IMG/VR virus record: IMGVR_UViG_3300042303_000177
Location: 1 to 40,603 of that record
DNA: 40,603 bases
Reading direction: 5' to 3' (one strand)
Origin: a virus
Part shown: piece after piece, positions 11,070 through 24,099 of the stretch
Position numbering within the stretch: position 1 is the first letter of the stretch
Layout of the letters: each line of letters starts with the position of its first letter
Program-made: the position numbers and the translations under genes
The notes under the pieces: generated by a model
Databases searched by the model: none
Told to the model about the DNA's origin: nothing
The model's input: the letters and a program-made list of their open reading frames with translations, nothing else

Positions 11070-11077
11070 AGAGCGTG

Positions 11078-12214
11078 ATGAGCAAGCAGTGGATCGCCGA
11101 TCGGAAGGTGCCGGGGCTAGGTGTGATGGTGCTGCCGTCCGGAGTGCGCACCTGGTATCTGCGCTACCGCGAGCCGGGCGGCAAGCAGCAGACACACAAG
11201 ATCGGCCGCGCTGATTCGGTGAACGTCACCACGGCCCGCGAGGAGGCCCATAAGATCCTTGCCGCCGTGGCGAAGGGTGATGCCCCCACTAGTGCCCGGC
11301 AACAGCTCAGGCGCTCGCCAACGGTCGCCCAGCTGCTCGAGCGGATCAAGCGGGAGCACTGGCGCAAGCTGAGGCCCTGCACCGTCGTGAACAATGAGCT
11401 GATCTGGCGGCTTCACCTGCTGCCCGAGTTCGGCGCCACGAAGGTGGTGGACCTGCAGCGGCGCCATGTCGTCGCATGGTTCCATGAACACAGCGACAGC
11501 CGGCCGGTGCGCGCCAACCGCTGCCTGGAGGTACTGAGCAAGGCCCTGAGCCTGGCTGAGCTGTGGGAGCTACGGCCGCAGGGCACCAACCCCTGCCAAG
11601 GGATCCAATCGAACCGGGAGGCGAAGCGGAAGCGCTACATCTCCCGCGAGGAGCTCGAGCGGATGACGGCCGCATTGGACGCGTTCGCGACGGCTGGCGT
11701 TCGCTGGCGCTTCGCCCAGCTGGTGCGGCTGCTGCTTCTCACTGGCTGCCGGATCAATGAGCTGATGGCTGCTCCGTGGCGCTGGCTCGACGATGACGCA
11801 ACGGTGCTCACCCTGCCCCCGGAGGCCCACAAGACCGGCGGCGATGGCAATGAGCGCAAGGTTCACCTTCCGCCCGCGGCGAGTCTCATCCTACGAGAGC
11901 TGAGACGCAGATCGAACACTGAGTGGATCATTGCCGGGGATGGCGATGGGCACTTGGTTGGCTACTGGCGGATGTGGGCGGACCTGCTCGAAGATGCCGG
12001 GATCCAGAACCTCCGCGTCCACGATCTGCGCCACTCCTATGCGTCCTATGCCATCACCACCGCGGGCCTGACGCTGCCGCAGGTGGGCGCGCTGCTCGGC
12101 CACGCCAGCCCGCAGACCACCGCCCGCTATGCGCACCTGATGGACGAAGCGGCTGCGGCGATGGCGGCGAAGGTGGCCAGCGCCATCACCCAGCAGAAAG
12201 CCCCGGCTGTTTAG
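11078..12214 (+). CDS. int: Tyrosine-recombinase integrase
   Basis: A 378-residue phage integrase. The catalytic domain shows R225 (TGCRINEL), K252, H316-x2-R319 (HDLRHSYAS), H342 (GHASPQTTA) and the nucleophile Y351. Residues 1-60 form an arm-type or DUF4102-like N-terminal domain, and about 80-175 the SAM-like core-binding domain. A GTG at 11075 is an alternative start, but the ATG at 11078 sits four bases after GGAGAG and is preferred. It integrates at the tRNA-derived attP 150 bp upstream. The converging dCTP deaminase gene follows, separated by a hairpin. All five family residues plus the nucleophile are present, so it should be active. Confidence 0.97.
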   Translation: MSKQWIADRKVPGLGVMVLPSGVRTWYLRYREPGGKQQTHKIGRADSVNVTTAREEAHKILAAVAKGDAPTSARQQLRRSPTVAQLLERIKREHWRKLRPCTVVNNELIWRLHLLPEFGATKVVDLQRRHVVAWFHEHSDSRPVRANRCLEVLSKALSLAELWELRPQGTNPCQGIQSNREAKRKRYISREELERMTAALDAFATAGVRWRFAQLVRLLLLTGCRINELMAAPWRWLDDDATVLTLPPEAHKTGGDGNERKVHLPPAASLILRELRRRSNTEWIIAGDGDGHLVGYWRMWADLLEDAGIQNLRVHDLRHSYASYAITTAGLTLPQVGALLGHASPQTTARYAHLMDEAAAAMAAKVASAITQQKAPAV

Positions 12215-12771: not shown

Positions 12772-13854
12772 TCAGTAGACCCACCGGAGCCTAGGCCCGC
12801 CCTGGCGGATGCCAAGATGCACGAACCCCTTGGGCGCGCCGTAGCCGAGGCTGTGGGGCCAGTGCTGATCGCACCAGTCCTGCACCGCGTAGATGTCAGC
12901 ACCGTCCACGGCGAAGTCCACGGCTCCCACGCCGATCGCGTTGTAGAGGTGCTCCGACTGGCTGGCGCCACCCACAGCCCGGTTGATCGCCGTGGGCCTG
13001 TAGCCGGAGGTGATCACGATCGACCGGCCGCCGAACTGCGCGCGCACCTTCTCGAGGAACTGCGCCAGCTTGCTGGCCGTGTCGCACTGGTGCTGGTGAT
13101 CGAAGCGCCGCGCCTCCTGGCCGAGCGCGAACTCGCCGTAGGTGATGTGAGGCGTGATCTTGAAGCTGAAGGGCGATTCTGGGGTGAACATCGCCGAGAC
13201 CGGGCCGGTGGTCTGCTTGTCACGGCCCCAGAGGTCACCTTCCGCGATGCGGCGCCGCTTCAAGCCGGCCTCCACGTTGGTGCCAGGGTTGCGGTAGAGC
13301 AGCAGCGCATCGGGCACGCCGGGCCAGTCCTTCTCGCGCAGCCGCTTGCTGATCGTCTCGAACCCCTTAGCGCCGTAGAAATCAGTGCCGAGGTTGTAGG
13401 CGAAGCTGATCAGCGCGCACTTCTGCTGGTCGGCCATCTCGGCCCAGTGGGGCACGGTGGCGCGCAGCTTGCCGGCGATGCGGTCCACCTCTTGACGCAG
13501 CAGCAGGTCGGCCTCGATCGCGTTGATCTTGTCGCCGCGCTTCACCGGCCGGCCGTCACCGTAGCGGGTGGTGCCGTAGCCGATGGTCCAGGGGTCGCCG
13601 CCGCTCAGCGGGTCGGGGTAGGCCTCGAGGTGGCAGCCCTCGAAATCCTTGATCAGCTTCAGGGCCGCGGCCAGGTCAGCCTGCTTGCCGTCCTGGCTCC
13701 AGGTGTTGAACCATGCCCGATCACGTCGCATGGCGGCCGCGTAGCCGTTGGTGGCGAGATCCTGCTCGAGGGTCTCGATCGCTGCAGCCTGGTGCGGGAG
13801 GCCCCGGTAGAACCGAAAGAGCTGCTCCAGCGTGATCGGTGCAGGGTTGGCCAT
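12772..13854 (-). CDS. Two-domain endolysin: GH24-type lysozyme plus M15 peptidase
   Basis: A 360-residue endolysin. Residues about 60-210 form a phage T4/lambdoid-type lysozyme: E72 in IKDFEGCHLEAY, D81 region (YPDP), then WTIGYGTT with the catalytic Thr. Residues about 235-360 form an M15 peptidase: SGYRPTAINRAVGGAS, SEHLYNA with H302, VDF with D313, and GFVHLG with H346 as the three zinc ligands. It would cut both the glycan chain and the peptide cross-links of peptidoglycan. There is no signal peptide or membrane span, so release depends on a holin; two small hydrophobic proteins are coded upstream. The N-terminal 60 residues have no recognised fold. Confidence 0.93.
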   Translation of the reverse strand: MANPAPITLEQLFRFYRGLPHQAAAIETLEQDLATNGYAAAMRRDRAWFNTWSQDGKQADLAAALKLIKDFEGCHLEAYPDPLSGGDPWTIGYGTTRYGDGRPVKRGDKINAIEADLLLRQEVDRIAGKLRATVPHWAEMADQQKCALISFAYNLGTDFYGAKGFETISKRLREKDWPGVPDALLLYRNPGTNVEAGLKRRRIAEGDLWGRDKQTTGPVSAMFTPESPFSFKITPHITYGEFALGQEARRFDHQHQCDTASKLAQFLEKVRAQFGGRSIVITSGYRPTAINRAVGGASQSEHLYNAIGVGAVDFAVDGADIYAVQDWCDQHWPHSLGYGAPKGFVHLGIRQGGPRLRWVY

Positions 13855-13857
13855 GGG

Positions 13858-14007
13858 TTAGCGGCGCTTGGGGAACAGCAGCCGGCCGGCCTGCAGCAGC
13901 AGCTGGATCCAGCTGTTGGACTTGAGCGGGCTGATCGCGATGATCTCGCTGCCGGCAGCAATGATGATCGCGACGATGGCGGCAGTCTCGGGGCTCATGA
14001 TGTCCAC
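13858..14007 (-). CDS. Small hydrophobic protein of the lysis cassette
   Basis: A 49-residue protein with a hydrophobic segment (AAIVAIIIAAGSEIIAI), an amphipathic NSWIQLLLQAGRLLF segment and a positively charged PKRR end. A single span and basic tail suit a small holin or pinholin, or a peripheral membrane protein. I start at GTG 14005-14007 (GAGGG seven bases upstream); an ATG at 13998 would shorten it by three residues. It ends four bases before the endolysin start. It resembles small proteins of cyanobacterial prophages from memory; none has a proven role. Confidence 0.62.
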   Translation of the reverse strand: MDIMSPETAAIVAIIIAAGSEIIAISPLKSNSWIQLLLQAGRLLFPKRR

Positions 14008-14022
14008 GTCGATGCCCTCAGG

Positions 14023-14256
14023 CTACTTGCGCATTTCAAGGGCGCGCACCCGCTGGTCCAGCTGGGTAAGCTCTGCCTTACTGTCTGTCTTGAGCTCCTC
14101 GACGGCCCGCGCCATCTGCTGCACGGTGGCCTCGACTCGAGCGAACTGCACCTGCATCGAGATGAGCAGGGCGCCGATGGCGAACATGCCAGCGCCGAGG
14201 GCCGCTGGAAGGGAAGCAGCGAAGACCCCGCCGACTGTCCTAGGTTCGTCCGCCAT
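14023..14256 (-). CDS. Transmembrane plus coiled-coil protein, candidate lysis regulator
   Basis: A 77-residue protein. Residues about 10-36 are hydrophobic (GGVFAASLPAALGAGMFAIG onward), followed by a charged coiled coil (FARVEATVQQMARAVEEL, then LTQLDQRVRALEM). It resembles holin-like or XhlA-like proteins in composition, though the order of coil and span is inverted compared with XhlA. The start is ATG 14254-14256 by position; an ATG at 14280 would add eight residues and overlap the upstream gene more. In line with the endolysin two genes later, it probably belongs to lysis. Confidence 0.6.
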   Translation of the reverse strand: MADEPRTVGGVFAASLPAALGAGMFAIGALLISMQVQFARVEATVQQMARAVEELKTDSKAELTQLDQRVRALEMRK

Positions 14257-14413
14257 CGGCTGATCCGGGTCTGATCCCATCGTAACGATCGAAGGGATCA
14301 GGCCTCCCGGCCAGGATGGCAAGAGCGCGCCTGTAGTAGTGATTCTCAGTCTGTCCCGCACGCTCTAGGTGGTCGCGGATCTTGCGCCAGTTTTCGAGCG
14401 TGTCGCGGTCCAT
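14240..14413 (-). CDS. Small basic protein before the lysis genes
   Basis: A 57-residue basic helical protein (MDRDTLENWRKIRDHLERAG, then ENHYYRRALAILAGRPDPFD). It is well coded and has the look of small proteins near endolysins in cyanobacterial prophages, none characterised. ATG at 14411-14413; overlap of 17 bp with the next gene. Confidence 0.6.
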   Translation of the reverse strand: MDRDTLENWRKIRDHLERAGQTENHYYRRALAILAGRPDPFDRYDGIRPGSADGGRT

Positions 14414-15261: not shown

Positions 15262-17124
15262 TCAGCGAAAGAAGACGACGTTAATCTGGCCCAAATCAAG
15301 GGCCGTCGTGGATCCGGGGTCGGAGTAGCCGGTCCTAAAGCGGAAAGCGGCTGTCGTCTTGGTTGCGCCGCTCAGCTGGTAGGCCCCAAACATGCCGGTG
15401 AAGTTTGTCGTCTGGTCGCAGTCCGTGCCGAAAGTGTAGCTATAGCTGGTGTCTGGCAGTGCCGTAGTGAAGTTCACCGTATAATCGCCAACGCCGTTGT
15501 CGGTAATGCTTGTGACATTGCCATCGGCGCGGATCGTGACTGTGCCAACGCCGCTGAAGTTCACCCACGCCCTCGCCCCGTAGATCGGCGCCGTGCCAGA
15601 TTGTGCGCCGGAGAGCTTGGCTGCTGTGACCCCTGAGTTGGCCAGCTCTGTGGTGCCGACCACGCCTGCTGCGATGGTGGCGGCGATGCTCGCATTGGCC
15701 GTGCCATTGAATGCTGCTGAGGTGCCGGTGACATCACCCGTCAGTGAGATGGTGCGGCCGGTAGTCAGCGAAGCCGCCGAGCCGGACACGCTGATTCCCC
15801 AGGTGCCCGTTGCACCTGTTCCGGTGGTGGGCACCATCGTGCCGCTCACCAGGGTCACGCTGGCATCGGGAAGCGTGACGGTCCGGTTGGCGGTCGGTTG
15901 GTTAGAGACGTTGTGATAGAAGGTGCCAGCCGCGTTGTAGAGGCGGAGGTTGCCGGAATCATCGAACGCGCCCGCGATGGCGCCATTGACGGCAAAACCG
16001 AGCAGTCCGGCCGCAGGGAAGTAGATCCCGGTATCGGTGTCGCCGCTCGTGCTCAGCGAGGGGGCGCTGACGGATCCGGCGCCGAGCTGCACTTGGCCGG
16101 CGAAATAGTTTGGCGCCGTGCCTGCCATGTAGCAGTTCCAGTTGCCGGTGCCGGCTGCCAGTGCACCATAAAACCCGAAGTCGTTGGTGGCGCCGGCGAT
16201 ACTGGACGACGCGACAAATCCGTACTGGTTGGTAATTGTCGTGCCAGCCCCAAGGGGTCCCGTCTGCGCCTGGAAGTGAACCAGACCGGAGAGCGCAGTG
16301 CTGGCTGCGGTGCCAACGGCACTGATAATCCCGTAGCCAGATCCGGTGACGCTTGCAGCGACTAGCGCATCTATTGTCTGCGAGGAGGAGGTAGCTGCGC
16401 TGCCCTGAATGGGCTTGGAGTTGCGAAAGCTGGCGGCACCGTCTGTAGTCGTGCCCAGTAGGAGGTTATTGGTGGGCGAGATTCGAAGAACCTCGGTGCC
16501 CTCAGACGCCAGCGCTAGGACGCCAGCCGCTGCGCTGTAGAGCCCCGTACCAGCTGCGCCGACCTGCAGGCCGTTGGCTGCCACGGTGCCTGATGGCACT
16601 TGAAGCACGCCCGTCAGCGTGCCGCCGGTCTTGAGCAGCGCATCATTGGCGATCTCAGCGTTTACATAAGCGCATGTCGCCAGCTGCGTGGTGTTGGTGC
16701 CAGCCGCTGCAGTCGGCGCAGTTGGGGTGCCCGTCAGCGCGGGGCTGACCAGCGTGGCGTAGCCCTGCGCCTTCACATAGGCGGTGGTGCTGATCGCCGT
16801 GCTGTTGTCAGCCGTTGCTGGCGTGGTGCTGGTGCCGCCGCCATTCAGCGCCGCCGCACCCGTAACCGTCAGAGCACCGCCGATACTGGCCGCGCCTGTG
16901 GTGCTCAGCCCGGTCAGGGCATAGGTGGTGGCCAGCTCGCCCCAAGCCGTGCCCGACCACTTCTGCCAGCGGTTGACCGAGCTGTTCCACCGAATGGCGC
17001 CCGTGATCAGGTTGCTGACCGTCTGCCCGTCGAACTGCTTCGCCAGGTCTTCGTCCCGCGCCTTCAGCTCCGTCAGGAAGTTGGTGTAGAGCGACGTGAG
17101 GGTGGGGTTGCTCCAGTTGGCCAT
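15262..17124 (-). CDS. Tail fibre / receptor-binding protein
   Basis: A 620-residue tail fibre. The N-terminal 45 residues (TSLYTNFLTELKARDEDLA) probably attach it to the tail tip. The long middle is low-complexity beta-rich repeat with Ala, Gly, Thr and Ser: TATAD-NSTAIST-type units, then ALTGTPTAPTAAAGTNTTQ, typical of phage fibre shafts. The C-terminal 110 residues (ARAWVNFSGVGTVTIR, then SITDNGVGDYTVNF and a beta-sandwich end) form the kind of head domain seen at the tips of many marine and freshwater phage fibres, likely the host-binding part. The start overlaps the J stop region, and two small accessory genes follow. Confidence 0.88.
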   Translation of the reverse strand: MANWSNPTLTSLYTNFLTELKARDEDLAKQFDGQTVSNLITGAIRWNSSVNRWQKWSGTAWGELATTYALTGLSTTGAASIGGALTVTGAAALNGGGTSTTPATADNSTAISTTAYVKAQGYATLVSPALTGTPTAPTAAAGTNTTQLATCAYVNAEIANDALLKTGGTLTGVLQVPSGTVAANGLQVGAAGTGLYSAAAGVLALASEGTEVLRISPTNNLLLGTTTDGAASFRNSKPIQGSAATSSSQTIDALVAASVTGSGYGIISAVGTAASTALSGLVHFQAQTGPLGAGTTITNQYGFVASSSIAGATNDFGFYGALAAGTGNWNCYMAGTAPNYFAGQVQLGAGSVSAPSLSTSGDTDTGIYFPAAGLLGFAVNGAIAGAFDDSGNLRLYNAAGTFYHNVSNQPTANRTVTLPDASVTLVSGTMVPTTGTGATGTWGISVSGSAASLTTGRTISLTGDVTGTSAAFNGTANASIAATIAAGVVGTTELANSGVTAAKLSGAQSGTAPIYGARAWVNFSGVGTVTIRADGNVTSITDNGVGDYTVNFTTALPDTSYSYTFGTDCDQTTNFTGMFGAYQLSGATKTTAAFRFRTGYSDPGSTTALDLGQINVVFFR

Positions 17125-20100
17125 CAGACTCCTCGGGCACTCCAGCTAAAAGCCCCACTCACCCGGTTGCCACTGGTGTCAAACAGCAGAACCTTGAAGC
17201 TGGTGGGGTTGGGGGCGTCCACGAAATCATAGATCGCGATCCGAGGAACTGTCCCGGAAGGTGTCACGCTGACCGCTTCCACGTCAACGAAGTTTATGGT
17301 GAAGTTCACGACAGTTCCCCCGACATCACTGGCCACTGCTGTGCCGGTGCCGAAGTCGTTCCGCAGCTTTGAGTCCAGCCTGTAGTTCAAGTCGGTCAGC
17401 TGCATCAGATCGTCGCCGCCTGCGCTGGCGAAGTCGTAGCGGAACTTGATGTAGCGGAAGTCGGTCGTGTAGACCTGATCCACCCCGTCGTAATCGATCC
17501 ACGGGTCGGTGTTGAGCTTCCGCACGCTGATCTTGGGCGTGACTGAGAACGAGCCGGCCACCACCGTGCTGGTCAGCGTCTGGGCCACCTTGCTGGACGG
17601 CACCACACCGCCGTAATCCACGATCTCCTCGTAGGAGGCGGACGTAGTGGACGGCATGGCCCAGCGGGGGTAGCCGGCTGTGACCTGATCCTGCGGTGTA
17701 GTCCAGCTCCTGGTGGTGAAGTGGTCCTGATAGGTCTCGGTCAGATTTAGGCCTAGGGTCAGCGTGCCTGCGTCCAGCTTTGCGTTCGTCTTCGTGCCGC
17801 TCCAGGTGGTGTTCTGGTTCAGCTTCAGCACATAGTCAGGCGGCTGGTTCACAGCTGCCGCCACGCTGCCAGGCGTTCCGTAGTTGCCTGCGCTGTCGAT
17901 GGCCGCCAGCCAGTAGATGAACGATCCGGCTGTGGTCTCAAACACCGTGGTAAACCGGCCGGACTTTGTGCCGATCACCGAAGCTGTGGCCCATGTGGCG
18001 CCGCGCCGTAGCTCAAAGGTCGCCACTGGCAGGACGGTCGTGCAGTCGTTCCACTGCAGCAGCACGTTGTTGTCCACCACCTGCTGCGTGATGGTTGGCT
18101 GGCTGGGCGGGGGCACCGTCACATCGATGGCCGCAGGAGTGCCGTAGCCGACACCTGCGCCGTAGAGGCCGTTGATGTCCACGGCCACCACCCAGAACCG
18201 CTCTGTCTGTCCCCAGTCCACCTTTTGCGTGTAGTAGGTGCCGTTGACCCGGCCGCTGACTGTTGCGGTCGCGTAGGTGCTACCGCGCCGGATTTCGTAG
18301 TAGGCCACCTCTAGGGTGCCTTGGACGGACTGCCAGCTGATCTGCATGTCGCTGCCGTTGAACAGCGACGACAGCGACGGAGCTGGTGGCGCAGCGACCG
18401 TAGCGACCACGCTGCCAGGGGTGCCGTAATTGCCGAGGGCGTCCACGCCAGCGACCCAGAAGGTTTGACCGCCAGACCAGTTCGCATCTAGCGAGTAGCC
18501 CGTGCCGTCAGAGCTGATCTTCGCCACCTTGGTCGCGGTTGCCCATGCCGCGCCGCGCCTGATCTCGTAGAACACCGACCGCAGGTCACCGTTGACCGGG
18601 TTCCATGTCAGGGCGCAAGTCCGGCCATAGAAAGCAGCAGAAACCGACGGCGCAACGGCAGGCGTGATGGTGACGACCACTGAGCCGCCCGCGCCCGTGT
18701 TGCCGGCCGGGTCCACACCGGCGACCCAGAACGTCCTAGCGCCATTCCAAGTGATCGGCACGTTGTAGCTATTGCCGTAGACCCGAGCCACACTCACCCC
18801 GGTGGCGTAGTTGGCGCCATAGCGCAGCTCGTAATAGTCGGGGGTATAGGAGCCTCGCGGGGTCGTCCAGACAATCGCCGCAACGGGATCCTGAATTGCG
18901 TGAGTCACCGTTGGTGCAGTCGGCGCCGTGATCGTGACGGTGGCGCTAGCGGCCGCCTGACTGACCACGTTGCTGGTGTCCCGCGCCTTCACCCGGTAGG
19001 AGGTGGTGCTGGGGTCCAGGAGCCCTAGGACGTAACGGGTGGTCTTGGCGTAGGCCAGGAATGTTGCGCTCTCCCAGCTGCCGCCGCCAGAGCGGATTTC
19101 ATAGTCTTTCAGGTCCAAGTCCGTGACCGGGTTCCAGCTGAGGGTGACGCCCAGATCGGGGTCGATCACCGCAGTGAGCCCGGCGACGTTGCTCGGGGCT
19201 GCAGTCTTGCCGAGCGCATTGATGCTCCCAGTCAGGGCGCTGGTGCTGATCTGCCCCACGGAGTTGAGGCTGAACACCTCGACTTGAAAGTTGCCCGGCG
19301 TGATGTTGAGGATTTCGTGGTCTGGCGACTGCGTGGTGTAGGTATTCCAGTTGCCGTTGCTCTTGCGCCAGCGGACCCGATACTGGTTGACCCCTCGCAC
19401 CTGACGCCAGGTGATGATGACCTTTGCCCGCACCTCCGCCTGATAGGTGTAGAGCGCCTCGGTCAGGGTGAGGTTGGTGGGCGCCGTTGGCACCAGATTG
19501 AGGTTGGTGACATCGCGGAACTGCAGCGGGCGGTCGCGCTCAATGAATGCGTACTTCGAGGCGTTGTAACTGAGCGCCGTGACCGTGTAGTTGGCGCCCT
19601 CCTGCTCCTGCACCGTGAGAACGCGCCAGAGCGAGGTGCTGATGCCGCCGCCGCTGTAGACCCACACGGTGTTCTCGCCAGGGGCGGCAGAGAATCCCGA
19701 CACGGTGTAGAGGATGTTGCCGATTCGATTGTTGATCGCCCGAGCCTCGACGGTGCCATCAGGCAGAACGACCGACAGGGTGCCTCCGCTGCCGGGCAGA
19801 CCGTCTGCGTTGTCCACGGTGACAGCAGACGCCGTGGCGCTGGCCACGCGACCGCCCCGGCGAGCGCCGGCCCTTGCAGGATCGGCCACCTCGATGACCT
19901 GGCCAGGACGAACTAGGACGCCAGCCTCCACCGATGCGGTGAACGTGATCACCTCCGTCTCGTACTGGCTGGAGTACAAGAGCCACTCCCCGAGCCGCGC
20001 CGCTTGGCCGCGTGAGGTGCAGGCAAAGGCCGACAGCTGTGTGGTCTGCACACCGTATTTGGCGACAGCCACCGCGTCCTCCACCACCTCGTAGGCGGTG

Positions 20101-21470
20101 TCCTTAGAGGCCAGGTCCAGGTAGGAGACGACGGCCACGGTGGGGCGCACCTTGCTGTCGCTGCCTGCGTAGCTGAAACCCTCCTCGGTGATGTTGGCCA
20201 GCGTGAACAGGTAGGAGCTGTCTGTGGGCTTGTCCTGCGCAACGGTCAGGGTGCCGGTGCTCCAGTAGGGCATGGCCCGGAACACGCTGCAGAGGTCGTT
20301 GATGAGCTTGTAGGCCTCCTCCTGCGTCTGGATGAGGCAGTGCATTGAGAAGCGGGGCTCAGTGCCGCCGAAGCCGGTGGGCACCAGCTCGTTGCAGTAT
20401 TGGCTCGCGGAGTAGAACGACCACTTGTCGAGGCTGGCCGCCGAGATGTGGCCGCCGAATCCATAGCGGCTGTTGGTGAGCAGATCCCACAGACACCAGG
20501 CAGGGTCTGAGGTCCACTGCGCGGCGCCAAAGGTGCCATTCCAGACGCCCGCGTAGGTGATGCGGCCAGTGGTCAGATCTACCGTCGCATTACTTGGAAT
20601 CGCCACCTTGCGCCCGCGCACCCGATAGCTGCGAGCCGGGACGGAGCTGAACTGCTCAGCGTTCACGCGAATGCCGACCAGGGCGCTGTTGGGATAGCGC
20701 AGCTTCTCCGCGATGATCTCGGTGTAGCTGGTCCAAGCGAAAGCGTCGATCAGCTTGGTGCTAGAGCTGTCGCCAGTGACGCGAGTGACGCGAACATCAA
20801 TCGGGAACGCACCCGACAAGCTGATAATGTAATCGCGCTGATAGTTGTCAGACGTGCGGCCAGTGATCGTATCATCTTTAACTGTTGTATAACCGCCACC
20901 GTTGTACTGAACAGCGATCTGAAGCCGAACGCTGGCGCCGTAAATATCCCCTTCGTTGCTAAAAAACTGCAGCTGCGGGAAATTGACAGTGACTCGCACC
21001 GCGTCAACGTTCACGTCAGTGATGGTGCGCACCACCGGCGTCGCCTGCTCGACCGTGACCCCCACGCCCACTTCGGTCGCTGCAGCGCCGCTGCCAGTGT
21101 TCGAGTTAATCGCCGTCTGCGCCTGAGTCCCGTACCGAACATCTATGCCGACGTTCTTAAAGTTGTAGTCGCTGGTCGCTGGGCTTGTATTGCTTGCGCC
21201 GGCTCTAAGTATTGGCGTGTTGTTGATATAGATGTCTTTGAGCATGGCGCGGTTCCAGTCCGCGCTGCCCCGCACGTAGCCAGCCTTGGAAGGCGTGGCG
21301 AAGCCCTCGATCTCGCCCTCGCCCAGTAGGTCAAGCACCTCGACCGTGGCGGTACTGTTCAGGTTGTCGGCCGCCTCGGTTGGGGTCCGTGCAGGTGCCG
21401 GGCTACTGCCGCCGCCCTTGCCGCCGCCGCCGCCGCCGCCTGCGCCTGAGATCAATTGGATGTCACTCAT
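17124..21470 (-). CDS. Tail tip attachment protein, lambda gpJ-like
   Basis: A 1448-residue tail-tip protein. Early residues include a glycine run (coded by GCC/GGC repeats at 21421-21440) and the J-like N-terminal segment EVLDLLGEGEIEGFA. The middle carries the central J domains (phage tail tip attachment, about residues 100-600), then several FN3-type repeats, visible as repeated beta modules with RVRWRKS-x-x-W and YEIRRG, and a C-terminal beta domain. The open frame continues upstream to 21953, but the ATG at 21468-21470 overlaps the I stop (ATGA) and starts the recognisable domain, so the upstream part is a shadow of gene I. J forms the distal tip, contacts the receptor and triggers genome ejection. 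Confidence 0.93.
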   Translation of the reverse strand: MSDIQLISGAGGGGGGGKGGGSSPAPARTPTEAADNLNSTATVEVLDLLGEGEIEGFATPSKAGYVRGSADWNRAMLKDIYINNTPILRAGASNTSPATSDYNFKNVGIDVRYGTQAQTAINSNTGSGAAATEVGVGVTVEQATPVVRTITDVNVDAVRVTVNFPQLQFFSNEGDIYGASVRLQIAVQYNGGGYTTVKDDTITGRTSDNYQRDYIISLSGAFPIDVRVTRVTGDSSSTKLIDAFAWTSYTEIIAEKLRYPNSALVGIRVNAEQFSSVPARSYRVRGRKVAIPSNATVDLTTGRITYAGVWNGTFGAAQWTSDPAWCLWDLLTNSRYGFGGHISAASLDKWSFYSASQYCNELVPTGFGGTEPRFSMHCLIQTQEEAYKLINDLCSVFRAMPYWSTGTLTVAQDKPTDSSYLFTLANITEEGFSYAGSDSKVRPTVAVVSYLDLASKDTAYEVVEDAVAVAKYGVQTTQLSAFACTSRGQAARLGEWLLYSSQYETEVITFTASVEAGVLVRPGQVIEVADPARAGARRGGRVASATASAVTVDNADGLPGSGGTLSVVLPDGTVEARAINNRIGNILYTVSGFSAAPGENTVWVYSGGGISTSLWRVLTVQEQEGANYTVTALSYNASKYAFIERDRPLQFRDVTNLNLVPTAPTNLTLTEALYTYQAEVRAKVIITWRQVRGVNQYRVRWRKSNGNWNTYTTQSPDHEILNITPGNFQVEVFSLNSVGQISTSALTGSINALGKTAAPSNVAGLTAVIDPDLGVTLSWNPVTDLDLKDYEIRSGGGSWESATFLAYAKTTRYVLGLLDPSTTSYRVKARDTSNVVSQAAASATVTITAPTAPTVTHAIQDPVAAIVWTTPRGSYTPDYYELRYGANYATGVSVARVYGNSYNVPITWNGARTFWVAGVDPAGNTGAGGSVVVTITPAVAPSVSAAFYGRTCALTWNPVNGDLRSVFYEIRRGAAWATATKVAKISSDGTGYSLDANWSGGQTFWVAGVDALGNYGTPGSVVATVAAPPAPSLSSLFNGSDMQISWQSVQGTLEVAYYEIRRGSTYATATVSGRVNGTYYTQKVDWGQTERFWVVAVDINGLYGAGVGYGTPAAIDVTVPPPSQPTITQQVVDNNVLLQWNDCTTVLPVATFELRRGATWATASVIGTKSGRFTTVFETTAGSFIYWLAAIDSAGNYGTPGSVAAAVNQPPDYVLKLNQNTTWSGTKTNAKLDAGTLTLGLNLTETYQDHFTTRSWTTPQDQVTAGYPRWAMPSTTSASYEEIVDYGGVVPSSKVAQTLTSTVVAGSFSVTPKISVRKLNTDPWIDYDGVDQVYTTDFRYIKFRYDFASAGGDDLMQLTDLNYRLDSKLRNDFGTGTAVASDVGGTVVNFTINFVDVEAVSVTPSGTVPRIAIYDFVDAPNPTSFKVLLFDTSGNRVSGAFSWSARGV

Positions 21471-22063
21471 GTCTGGCTGATGTCGATGGCGGCGCTGATC
21501 ACCACCGAGCCCACGATGGTCTCGCCGTAGATCACCGGGACAGGGACGCCCTGTCTGCTGACATTCTGAATCCCGCTGAAGCTGTACGACTTGCGGGGGT
21601 CGTTGTCGGAATCCTTGCCGAGTTGTGTTTGCTGAGGAACTGGCGTGAGCAGCTGCGCCACGCCGCCGAGGATCAGGCTGGCACCCACGCCCAGCGCTAC
21701 GGTGCCCACGGCCAGCGTGCCCGCACCAAACAGTCCAATCGCAGCACCGCCGAAGCCGCCGGTGGCAATCGTCAGCGCGACCAGCGCAACGCCTGCGATG
21801 ATTCGCCCCACAGCGCCGGCGCCGGCAACTACGGGCACGATCTTGATGTCTTGCTGCCCGACCGGATGGCCGATCTCCTCGAGCGAAAGATCGTAATTCC
21901 CCGCGCTCACCCGGTAGTGCTGGTCGGCCATGTGCTTCTCCAGCTCCGGCCAATTTGCCAGCAGGAACCGCACCGCCTCCGCCGCACTGCTCACATCGGC
22001 GTAGAGCACCCGCTTGCCGATGAACTTCGCGAGCTGGCCGTAGAGCCTAATCTTGCGAAGCAT
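21467..22063 (-). CDS. Tail assembly protein, lambda gpI-like
   Basis: A 198-residue protein. The ubiquitin-like N-terminal part ([20 protein letters not shown], with [16 protein letters not shown]) and the glycine/alanine-rich hydrophobic middle ([20 protein letters not shown] and [18 protein letters not shown]) match lambda I, needed for tail-tip assembly but not a main virion part. Overlaps K by 17 bp and J by 4 bp. Confidence 0.9.
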
Positions 22064-22754
22064 GGCGCAGCCTCCGTCCCGTGCATTGTAGGAGCCAGCC
22101 GCCGTAGAGGTCGCGGCTGCTGAGCCTGCCCTGCAGGTGGTGGAGCACGGTCTGCTCTCCCAGGTAGACGGCGACGTGGTTGAGCCCGCTGCTATTGATC
22201 GCCATCAGTAGGGCGTCACCGTGCTGCAGTTCCTCGTCCTCCAGCAGCTCTCGAAAGCCAGTGTCCTTCCAGCAGCGGTCAAAGATCGGCTCACGCACGA
22301 AGTCATCTGACCTTGCCGGCCTTTTCCAGTCGCGCAGCTCAAGTCCCATCTCGTCGGCGTACCAGTCGCGCACCAGCGTCCAGCAGTCGGAGATGCCCCA
22401 TGCCCAGCTCCGGCCGATCAGTGGTGCTTTGTAGCCCTCTGGCTCGCAGCCGCCCCACGCTTCGGTCTTGGGGTTGACGATGTGCCAGGGCAGGCCGCTG
22501 CGCTCACACGCCATGCGGTCTGCCTGGCTGGGCTGTGGCGGGGTGATCGGGTGGCTGTGGACGACTGCGACCACCTCGCCAGCGTCCTCGGCCTTGGCCC
22601 AATCCTCAGGATCAAGCACGAAGAAATCGTCCTGGTCTGCCAGGTTGCCGCAGGGCCAGTAACGTTCGCGGCCTTTGACGACCACCAGCAGGCCGCAGGC
22701 TTCGCGGGGATCCTCCGCCTTGGCGTGTTCGAGCGCGTCTGCCTGCCAGGTCAC
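22047..22754 (-). CDS. Tail tip assembly protein, lambda gpK-like (JAMM + NlpC/P60)
   Basis: A 235-residue protein with two enzymatic folds. The N-terminal JAMM/MPN+ domain has E18, H66-S-H68, S76 and D79 in [15 protein letters not shown]. The C-terminal NlpC/P60 cysteine peptidase has C124 (SDCWTLV) and H193 (NHVAVYLG). Lambda gpK has the same pair and works at tail-tip assembly and, probably, cell-wall penetration. The start overlaps L (ATGA-type), and the end overlaps I by 17 bp. Confidence 0.92.
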
Positions 22755-23758
22755 AGCGTGTAGCTCCCGATGCCAGGGAAGCTGCCGAAAGGCAGGGGGA
22801 AGTCATTGCCGAAGCGTAGCTTGCAGCTGTTGACGCGCTTGCCGCACACGTCCTGAGCCTCGCTCGATACGCCGACATCGTTGTCGTTGAAGTAGACAAT
22901 CACATTCAGGTCCGGGTATGTAGACAGGTAGTAGGCCGCATTGAACTGCCCGCCAGCATTGCCGCTGCGTCCCTCCCAGATGCCGTAGTTGCGGAAGTGC
23001 TGATTGGCAGTCGCAACTGTGTATCCGGCCGCGACGACATCCGCATAAATAGAAAGGTAGTAGCTGGCGTTGAACTGTCCCGAGCTGTTTATGTTACGAC
23101 CTTCGTTGTACCCAAAATTGACGTAATGATTTCGCAGCGGTTTTACTGCTGCGCCGGTTGGGCTGTACCCGCATTCTGCTGATTTATAGGTCCACTGGCA
23201 AACATTGGCGATGCACTGCCGCTTCGGCGCCCTTACCCCCTGCAGGTCGAACGCTGCTGCCAGCTCAAACTCCACCACATCACGGTTCTCGGTCACCTTG
23301 CGGCTGATGTAGTAGATCTCCTGCGGGAACTCGGCTGTCGGGTCCGGGGTGCCGTAGGGGTTCACGTTGCCGGGGAAGTTCACCGCGTCCAGGTAGCGGG
23401 CTAGCGTGCGCCGCCGGATCACCTTGGCGCCGATCAGGTCATTGCCTGGCGTGATCGCATTCACCGCCAGCAGCACCGTGGTGATGGTGCTGAGCACGTT
23501 GGCCACCCGCAGCTTCGGGCGGGGGAGCTGGCCGTTGCCGCTGTACTCAAAGCCGTCACACTCGACGGGAAATGCGGTGAAGGTCTGCCCGGCCCACACG
23601 ACGTTCCCGCCGTCGTTCTTGCCGTTCACACCGGCATGGAAGCGGTAGACATCCGCGCTCCCGTGGAGCGCCGCCACCAGGCGCAGCTCGAACAGCTCGA
23701 TGATCGCGCTCGGCGCGACCTTCTGCAGCTCTTGCGTGATCTCCTGCGGAACGGTCAT
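22751..23758 (-). CDS. Tail tip protein, lambda gpL-like, with inserted repeat modules
   Basis: A 335-residue gpL-like protein, which caps the tail tube at the tip. The family core is intact: an N-terminal beta region, then C182-x4-C187 (CIANVC), C196 (AECGYSPTG) and, after a long interruption, C305 and C312 ([15 protein letters not shown]). In lambda gpL the cysteine region binds an iron-sulfur cluster. Residues about 205-285 are not family sequence: they are half, whole and half copies of a [17 protein letters not shown]-type repeat with YGIWEGR ends. That insertion also has lower GC and is unusual (see findings). Start ATG overlaps the stop of M. Confidence 0.88.
22904..23146 (-). repeat. 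Inserted repeat modules within gpL
   Basis: The insertion covers residues about 205-285 of L. Two full-length FNA-x-YYLS-x-Y-x-D starts are present (residues 229-240 and 272-283) and two EGR ends (218-221 and 261-264), giving a permuted half, full, half arrangement. The DNA shows matching stretches: AGGTAGTAG and TTGAACTG occur in both copies. Base composition is visibly less GC-rich than the flanking gene. The modules resemble repeats in large cell-surface proteins of bacteria. Confidence 0.75.
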
Positions 23759-24099
23759 GAGGGCTCTGCAACCTGCCGGAAGGTGGCGGTAACGGTGTTC
23801 AGGTTGTAGGCGTCAGCCGTCACCTGCCAGTCTTCACAGACGAACTGGCCCTGCACTGCGCCCCACACGGGGGGGGTCCAGGTGAACGACTCCACTCCAC
23901 CGCGAGCCTGCAGGAAATTGCGGATAGCGGTCGTCTCAGTGTCGGTGCGGGCCTTGAATGTCAGCTGCCAACTCTTCAGGTCGGTGTTCAAGCCAAAGCG
24001 GATGCGCTGCTCATAGCCATCGCCAAAACCCACTCGGCGCACGCGAGGTTTGCTCACCTCGGTCGGCGGAAACTCGGGGACGTAGGTGAAGGTCGCCAT
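23755..24099 (-). CDS. Minor tail protein, lambda gpM-like
   Basis: A 114-residue protein with the gpM family landmarks: VRRVGFGDGYEQRIRFG near residue 20, SWQLTFKART in the middle and SFTWTPP before the end. It is a tail-tip component added before L. Its stop overlaps L by 4 bp, and a 2-bp gap separates it from the tape measure. Confidence 0.9.
   Translation of the reverse strand: MATFTYVPEFPPTEVSKPRVRRVGFGDGYEQRIRFGLNTDLKSWQLTFKARTDTETTAIRNFLQARGGVESFTWTPPVWGAVQGQFVCEDWQVTADAYNLNTVTATFRQVAEPS

Follow-up and report, generated by a model that had tools for sequence, protein, structure and literature searches.

Evidence for exchange of unrelated cassettes in the Fe-S loop of the tail tip protein gpL of a lambda-like phage

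The window, that is, the whole analysed stretch of 40,603 nucleotides (IMG/VR record IMGVR_UViG_3300042303_000177), contains a block of tail genes in the order gpM-gpL-gpK-gpI-gpJ, as in phage lambda. The gpI gene is placed by its position, and the others by Pfam or PHROGs matches. The features are as follows.

23755..24099, minus strand: gpM-like distal tail protein (PF05939, E 6e-30)
22751..23758, minus strand: gpL, tail tip protein (hub HDI plus [4Fe-4S]), 335 aa (TIGR01600, PF05100, PHROG_18; Foldseek to lambda gpL)
23162..23758, minus strand: conserved gpL core, the HDI beta-sandwich and the first two Fe-S cysteines C187 and C196 (94% amino acid identity to L041, 88% to L017, 80% to L086)
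about 22853..23161, minus strand: exchangeable cassette between CGY and DVCGKR, the repeats plus the YFNDND hairpin (BLASTN breakpoints against relatives)
22904..23146, minus strand: FNA-type repeat module, gpL residues 205–285 (shuffle test; predicted helices; segment shared by at least 10 distinct gpLs)
22751..22852, minus strand: conserved gpL C-terminal core, which holds the Fe-S cysteines C305 and C312 and ends in LPFGSFPG (invariant cysteines; lambda gpL alignment)
22047..22754, minus strand: gpK-like JAB/NlpC-P60 protein (PF14464, PF00877)
21467..22063, minus strand: probable gpI-like protein (position and a hydrophobic stretch; no significant family match)
17124..21452, minus strand: gpJ-like central tail fibre protein (PHROG_31, E 6e-237)

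The gpL protein of the window matches TIGR01600 (E 2e-61, 207 bits, curated cut-off 70.75), PF05100 (E 6e-54, 182.8 bits, curated cut-off 25) and PHROG_18 (E 3e-83). The family match is split: it covers the core up to approximately residue 200 and is picked up again at the C-terminal end. The top Foldseek match of the gpL model is lambda gpL (8iyk_L, E 1.6e-12), which has in common with it the HDI core, the four Fe-S cysteines and the gene order. When the profile is aligned to 8iyk_L, to which it matches strongly, C187, C196, C305 and C312 correspond to lambda C173, C182, C205 and C212, the ligands of the lambda [4Fe-4S] cluster (PMC10721106); being in the lambda order, they are the predicted ligands here. 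However, 108 residues lie between the second and the third cysteine (C196–C305), compared to 22 in lambda gpL, which has no foreign repeat domain at this loop. The four cysteines are invariant in a 34-sequence alignment of relatives, and thus the proposal of an earlier, sequence-only reading, an insertion in the cysteine domain with the cysteines retained, was borne out.

TerL and the portal protein are closest to those of the Synechococcus siphophages S-CBS3, S-CBS1 and S-LBS1 (47% and 63%), and gpJ is closest to that of Prochlorococcus phages. The window encodes an integrase (11075–12211), also found in the freshwater phage S-LBS1 (PMC6157547); a 485-aa ORF beside it (12817–14271, plus strand) has no PHROG match. 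A scan of genome contigs with the insert as the only query yielded distant cellular repeats and no prophage with this gpL. Hence we infer the host from the phage side, and it is likely a picocyanobacterium.

The module between C196 and C305 is about 80 residues long and is built of the unit F[ND]xxYYLxxxxDV ... H[YF]xxxGxxEGR in a permuted order: the C-terminal half of a unit, one full unit and the N-terminal half. In the window the full unit has the form FNxxYYLxxYxDV...HFxxYGxxEGR. The same order holds in every FNA-type gpL, and no tandem array of whole units was found among them, one whole unit standing between two halves in all examples. The internal repeats are beyond chance: for each half unit, 5000 shuffled versions were scored against the full unit and none matched the real score. 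The GC content of the segment, 53–54%, is lower than in the rest of gpL (62–64%) and in the whole window (65.0%), as had been noticed from the sequence; less than 1% of the stretches of that length in the window have so little GC.

Helices and no other elements are predicted, with low to moderate confidence, at residues 206–215, 231–243, 248–259 and 274–285, so the module is probably alpha-helical. The AlphaFold2 models are of low confidence (pLDDT 58 for the whole gpL and 46 for the insert alone). The insert alone has no significant family in Pfam, NCBIfam or PHROGs, the only PHROG match being sub-threshold (E 0.014), and Foldseek of its model found no structural match in PDB. Matches to GH12 glucanases in a phmmer search against PDB (E 5e-4 and 0.17) were taken as chance, since the aligned stretch departs from the repeat motif. 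Among annotated phage gpL records the insert has no match; the sole match is an unannotated faecal 'Bacteriophage sp.' contig (33.6%, E 0.01), which we leave out of the count.

Relatives were collected in three IMG/VR scans, by the window protein, an alignment and the insert, giving 128 distinct complete gpLs. The site contains nothing, an FNA module, Ig/FCCH-like repeats, a putative coiled coil with a beta head, or a lectin-bearing cassette. The empty site has the form CGYTGTxYFDxNDxxVxxxxxDVCGKR or is shorter. FNA-type gpLs account for 16 of the 128 sequences, although the sampling favours gpLs of the kind found in the window, and hence neither the class counts nor the counts of cassette changes and loop insertions given below are frequencies. 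The Ig/FCCH-like beta-repeat cassettes have one to three copies, and in the coiled-coil class the putative coiled coil surrounds the beta head. In the long lectin-bearing class, the B_lectin domain (PF01453) is above the cut-off in L093 (E 2.9e-10) and matches more weakly in L099, L112 and L116. The cassettes are unrelated folds of about 70–280 residues, and many close relatives have none.

Among cultured cyanophages, S-2L and S-CBS4 have a large gpL cassette at the same loop; it is of the coiled-coil type, unrelated to the FNA module of the window, and their core is distant. In KBS-S-2A and S-H1 the site is empty. The gpL of MED4-184 lacks the cysteine domain, and the marine gpLs L055–L083 (about 193 aa), terminating in FPSIGTF, lack this domain entirely. 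The FNA type is rare, being present in two of the 80 gpL loci retained by the core-pattern scan, so the repeats are not spread over most gpL homologues; such a spread would have spoken against an insertion. The confirmed FNA matches in IMG/VR (24 loci) are in gpL at this very site in every distinct case examined.

The borders of the cassette follow from DNA alignments. BLASTN matches of the window to L017, L019, L020, L034 and L041 end at reverse-complement positions 17442–17445 (17442 for L034), and those to L017, L019, L020 and L041 restart at 17752. The breakpoints are shared to the codon, the first lying just behind CGY and the second just ahead of DVCGKR; hence the exchanged unit extends approximately from 22853 to 23161 and includes the YFNDND hairpin. 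The repeats are where the sequence-only reading had placed them, at 22904–23146, whereas the hairpin, assigned by it to the core, belongs to the cassette.

The closest cores over the HDI domain belong to L041 with an Ig-type cassette (93%), L017 with a coiled coil (89%) and L086 with a further insert (81%). When the N-terminal part is compared in full, the identity to the window is 94%, 88% and 80%, respectively, whereas the inserts are only 23–27% identical. These three and the window gpL make up a supported clade (SH-aLRT 95) in which no two members share a cassette. Over all classes, 23 cassette changes are required by the tree of 105 HDI cores, which could be distorted by recombination within the core; these include six for FNA, eight for Ig and five for the coiled coil, and at least three of the six FNA changes are forced by strongly supported branches. 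The lectin type forms a single clade, with a core distant from that of the window. At least 70 extra residues at this loop are present in 46 of the 105 Cys-bearing gpLs, whereas any other internal loop has large insertions in at most six of 105 (the second half of the same site excepted). The window gpL, a conserved tail protein, thus has a foreign domain lodged in one of its loops that its close relatives lack. With regard to a possible diversity-generating retroelement target (template/variable repeat, adenine mutagenesis, reverse transcriptase), the relatives differ by replacement of whole cassettes and not by scattered substitutions. As judged from these comparisons, the Fe-S loop of gpL is an exchange site carrying several unrelated cassettes, and the idea of an acquired module holds more strongly than it was proposed.

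The dN/dS ratio of the FNA inserts is 0.03 for L159–L084 and 0.04 for L159–L162, the two close pairs that are least saturated and have a still measurable synonymous distance, compared to 0.12 for the cores in both pairs. In L159–L162 the insert is closer than the core (91% versus 76% identity), and in L159–L016 the core is closer (insert 59%, core 78%), the pattern predicted for cassettes that move from core to core. Recent copying of the module into the window was rejected, as synonymous sites are saturated relative to all other FNA gpLs compared. From the substitution pattern, the FNA module is old and functional, being under strong purifying selection.

Cellular relatives of the FNA repeats are of two kinds, N-terminal repeats of glycosyltransferase-like proteins from Rheinheimera and Novosphingobium, and plasmid-borne RTX, M10 and calcium-binding proteins, among the latter one cyanobacterial relative with four units in the ordinary order. 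The protein WP_011316851 of Trichormus variabilis shows 40% identity to the gpL module over 75 residues. In the RTX/M10 proteins and glycosyltransferases (FNxxYYLxxNPDV...HYLxxGxxEGR; WP_011316851 and L180 from Rheinheimera) the motif order is the same as in gpL and the per-unit spacing is similar. However, gpL has only two units' worth of sequence, permuted and split at the insertion borders, and lacks the RTX nonapeptides and the glycosyltransferase domain of its cellular kin. The attribution of such repeats to large bacterial surface proteins is half correct: there are RTX/calcium-binding and M10 proteins among the relatives, and the N-terminal repeats of glycosyltransferases belong here as well.

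In lambda, the Fe-S domain is present in three copies on the outside of the tip cone (PMC10721106) and swings outward rigidly upon tip opening (PMC11101478). Hence, for a domain between the second and the third cysteine, projection from the tip would be most likely. With slightly better than even confidence, we propose that the Fe-S loop of gpL is a surface-exposed socket for interchangeable, independently folding domains, and that the one in the window binds the host surface and aids reversible adsorption. Lambda-like phages, that of the window being probably a phage of picocyanobacteria, would plug such domains into the loop. From the two halves one more FNA unit could form, which would draw the ends of the domain together for insertion into a loop. 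If exposure is as in lambda, the FNA domain most likely projects outside the tail-tip cone in three copies per virion. It probably binds a host-surface polysaccharide or a surface-layer component, and this would assist reversible adsorption before gpJ engages its receptor. We know of no ligand of the FNA repeats.

An auxiliary adhesin is a plausible role, and the best reading of the module, because a B-lectin is an alternative cassette, the domain is surface-exposed in lambda, and the evolved Dits provide a proven precedent. The secreted RTX proteins and the glycosyltransferases among the cellular kin also speak for adhesion. Adsorption to EPS-coated hosts is regained through carbohydrate-binding domains inserted in Dit (PMC10688798). 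Like the gpL cassette, the insert of evoDit in lactococcal and other siphophages, a carbohydrate-binding-type domain, occupies a loop of a conserved structural protein of the tail end (PMC10688798, PMC6669499), and in both cases some relatives have the insert and others lack it. However, the evoDit insert was shown to aid adsorption to polysaccharide-coated cells, whereas for the gpL insert we infer binding; further, the gpL case concerns a hub/Fe-S protein and not Dit, a lambda-type tip, and other cassettes. The FNA module matches no known carbohydrate-binding fold in Pfam or PDB, and only the lectin cassette of other gpLs qualifies as such. No structure of gpL with an insert of this kind was found.

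The cassette could, alternatively, be a structural element, such as a spacer, a clamp for side fibres or a stabiliser of the gpL–gpJ cone, with no ligand outside the virion and with selection only for folding and assembly. The tolerance of one site to unrelated folds of about 70–280 residues, its being empty in many close relatives, and the common use of Ig-like and coiled-coil folds as structural decorations are consistent with this. Still, the strong conservation of the FNA sequence and the lectin alternative suit binding better than a spacer, and swaps between very close cores suggest selection for change. We consider a purely structural role unlikely, though far from negligible. A farther-reaching reading, which we consider unlikely, makes the loop a receptor-module socket that is general to lambda-like aquatic phages and driven by recombination. 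In this reading the split FNA would be a new class of polysaccharide-binding adhesins, whose binding would be relayed through the rotating Fe-S domain and help to open the tip.

It is very unlikely that the module mimics a bacterial surface protein or acts as a decoy, for instance by binding a host enzyme or hiding the tip. The repeats are indeed found in bacterial RTX-type proteins too, but the nearest cellular relatives found are only about 30–43% identical, the other cassettes at this site are no bacterial surface mimics, and antibody-like pressure is not known in the likely host. Thus the suggestion of an antigen-like decoy found no support. It is even more improbable that the module is a neutral passenger, a product of functionless recombination at a permissive loop: the loop is short or missing in many relatives and the GC content of the cassette is unlike that of its surroundings, but the purifying selection in the two least saturated pairs and the long persistence of the module at saturated synonymous distance largely refute this. 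Finally, despite the abrupt GC shift, an assembly artefact or frame error, also envisaged initially, has a negligible probability, as the frame is open, at least ten distinct gpLs from independent contigs have the module at the same position, and the protein is conserved at saturated synonymous divergence.

The general variability of the gpL C-terminus is already stated in the literature: a comparison of LSH1 and Jersey hubs describes the C region of gpL as hypervariable and near the cell wall (PMC13243795). There the C domain is replaced or truncated, whereas the gpLs compared in this analysis retain the Fe-S domain and exchange entire domains in one loop. In the literature searched, mainly open-access papers, no description of an Fe-S-loop exchange site or of a split FNA module was found. 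The lambda gpL cluster lies on the outer face of the tip and has no known function (PMC10721106). A precise hotspot for the exchange of lectins and other candidate binding folds among near-identical cores suggests that the Fe-S domain may be a mounting platform for auxiliary adhesins, and the cultured cyanophages S-2L and S-CBS4 make this idea testable. If it is true, the loop would join gpJ and the side fibres as a second determinant of host range, one that is easy to recognise and useful in predicting the hosts of uncultured phages.

Further insertion sites were seen in gpL. At the second site, in the HDI loop after LDAVNFP, large foreign domains are present in L041:4001-5521, L003:2486-3475 and L170:2889-4370; in L041 and L170 the stretch ends in ESG/EAG...YQxIGxTWSQNPYG, and L170 has an FNA module in addition. 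The third site, located between the final pair of Fe-S cysteines and LPFG/LPYGSFPG, contains about 205–236 residues of TGSVTxGSxxhxV-type beta repeats in L051, L091, L127, L133, L158 and L152, the latter gpL ending at the contig end.

The motif YVVxGYWxxGYAxGD is seen at the N-terminus of gpL in L054, L125 and L166–L169, and L054 has a second copy behind NFP in the HDI loop, which looks like a small peptide module moving between sites. The gpLs L012–L015 are nearly identical to L004–L011 except for an insertion of 34 residues (AAASAETDSLLLEDSPFNDFYILGY...) in the first HDI loop. A similar stretch, FHDIYILDYSS, is found at the N-terminus of L119.
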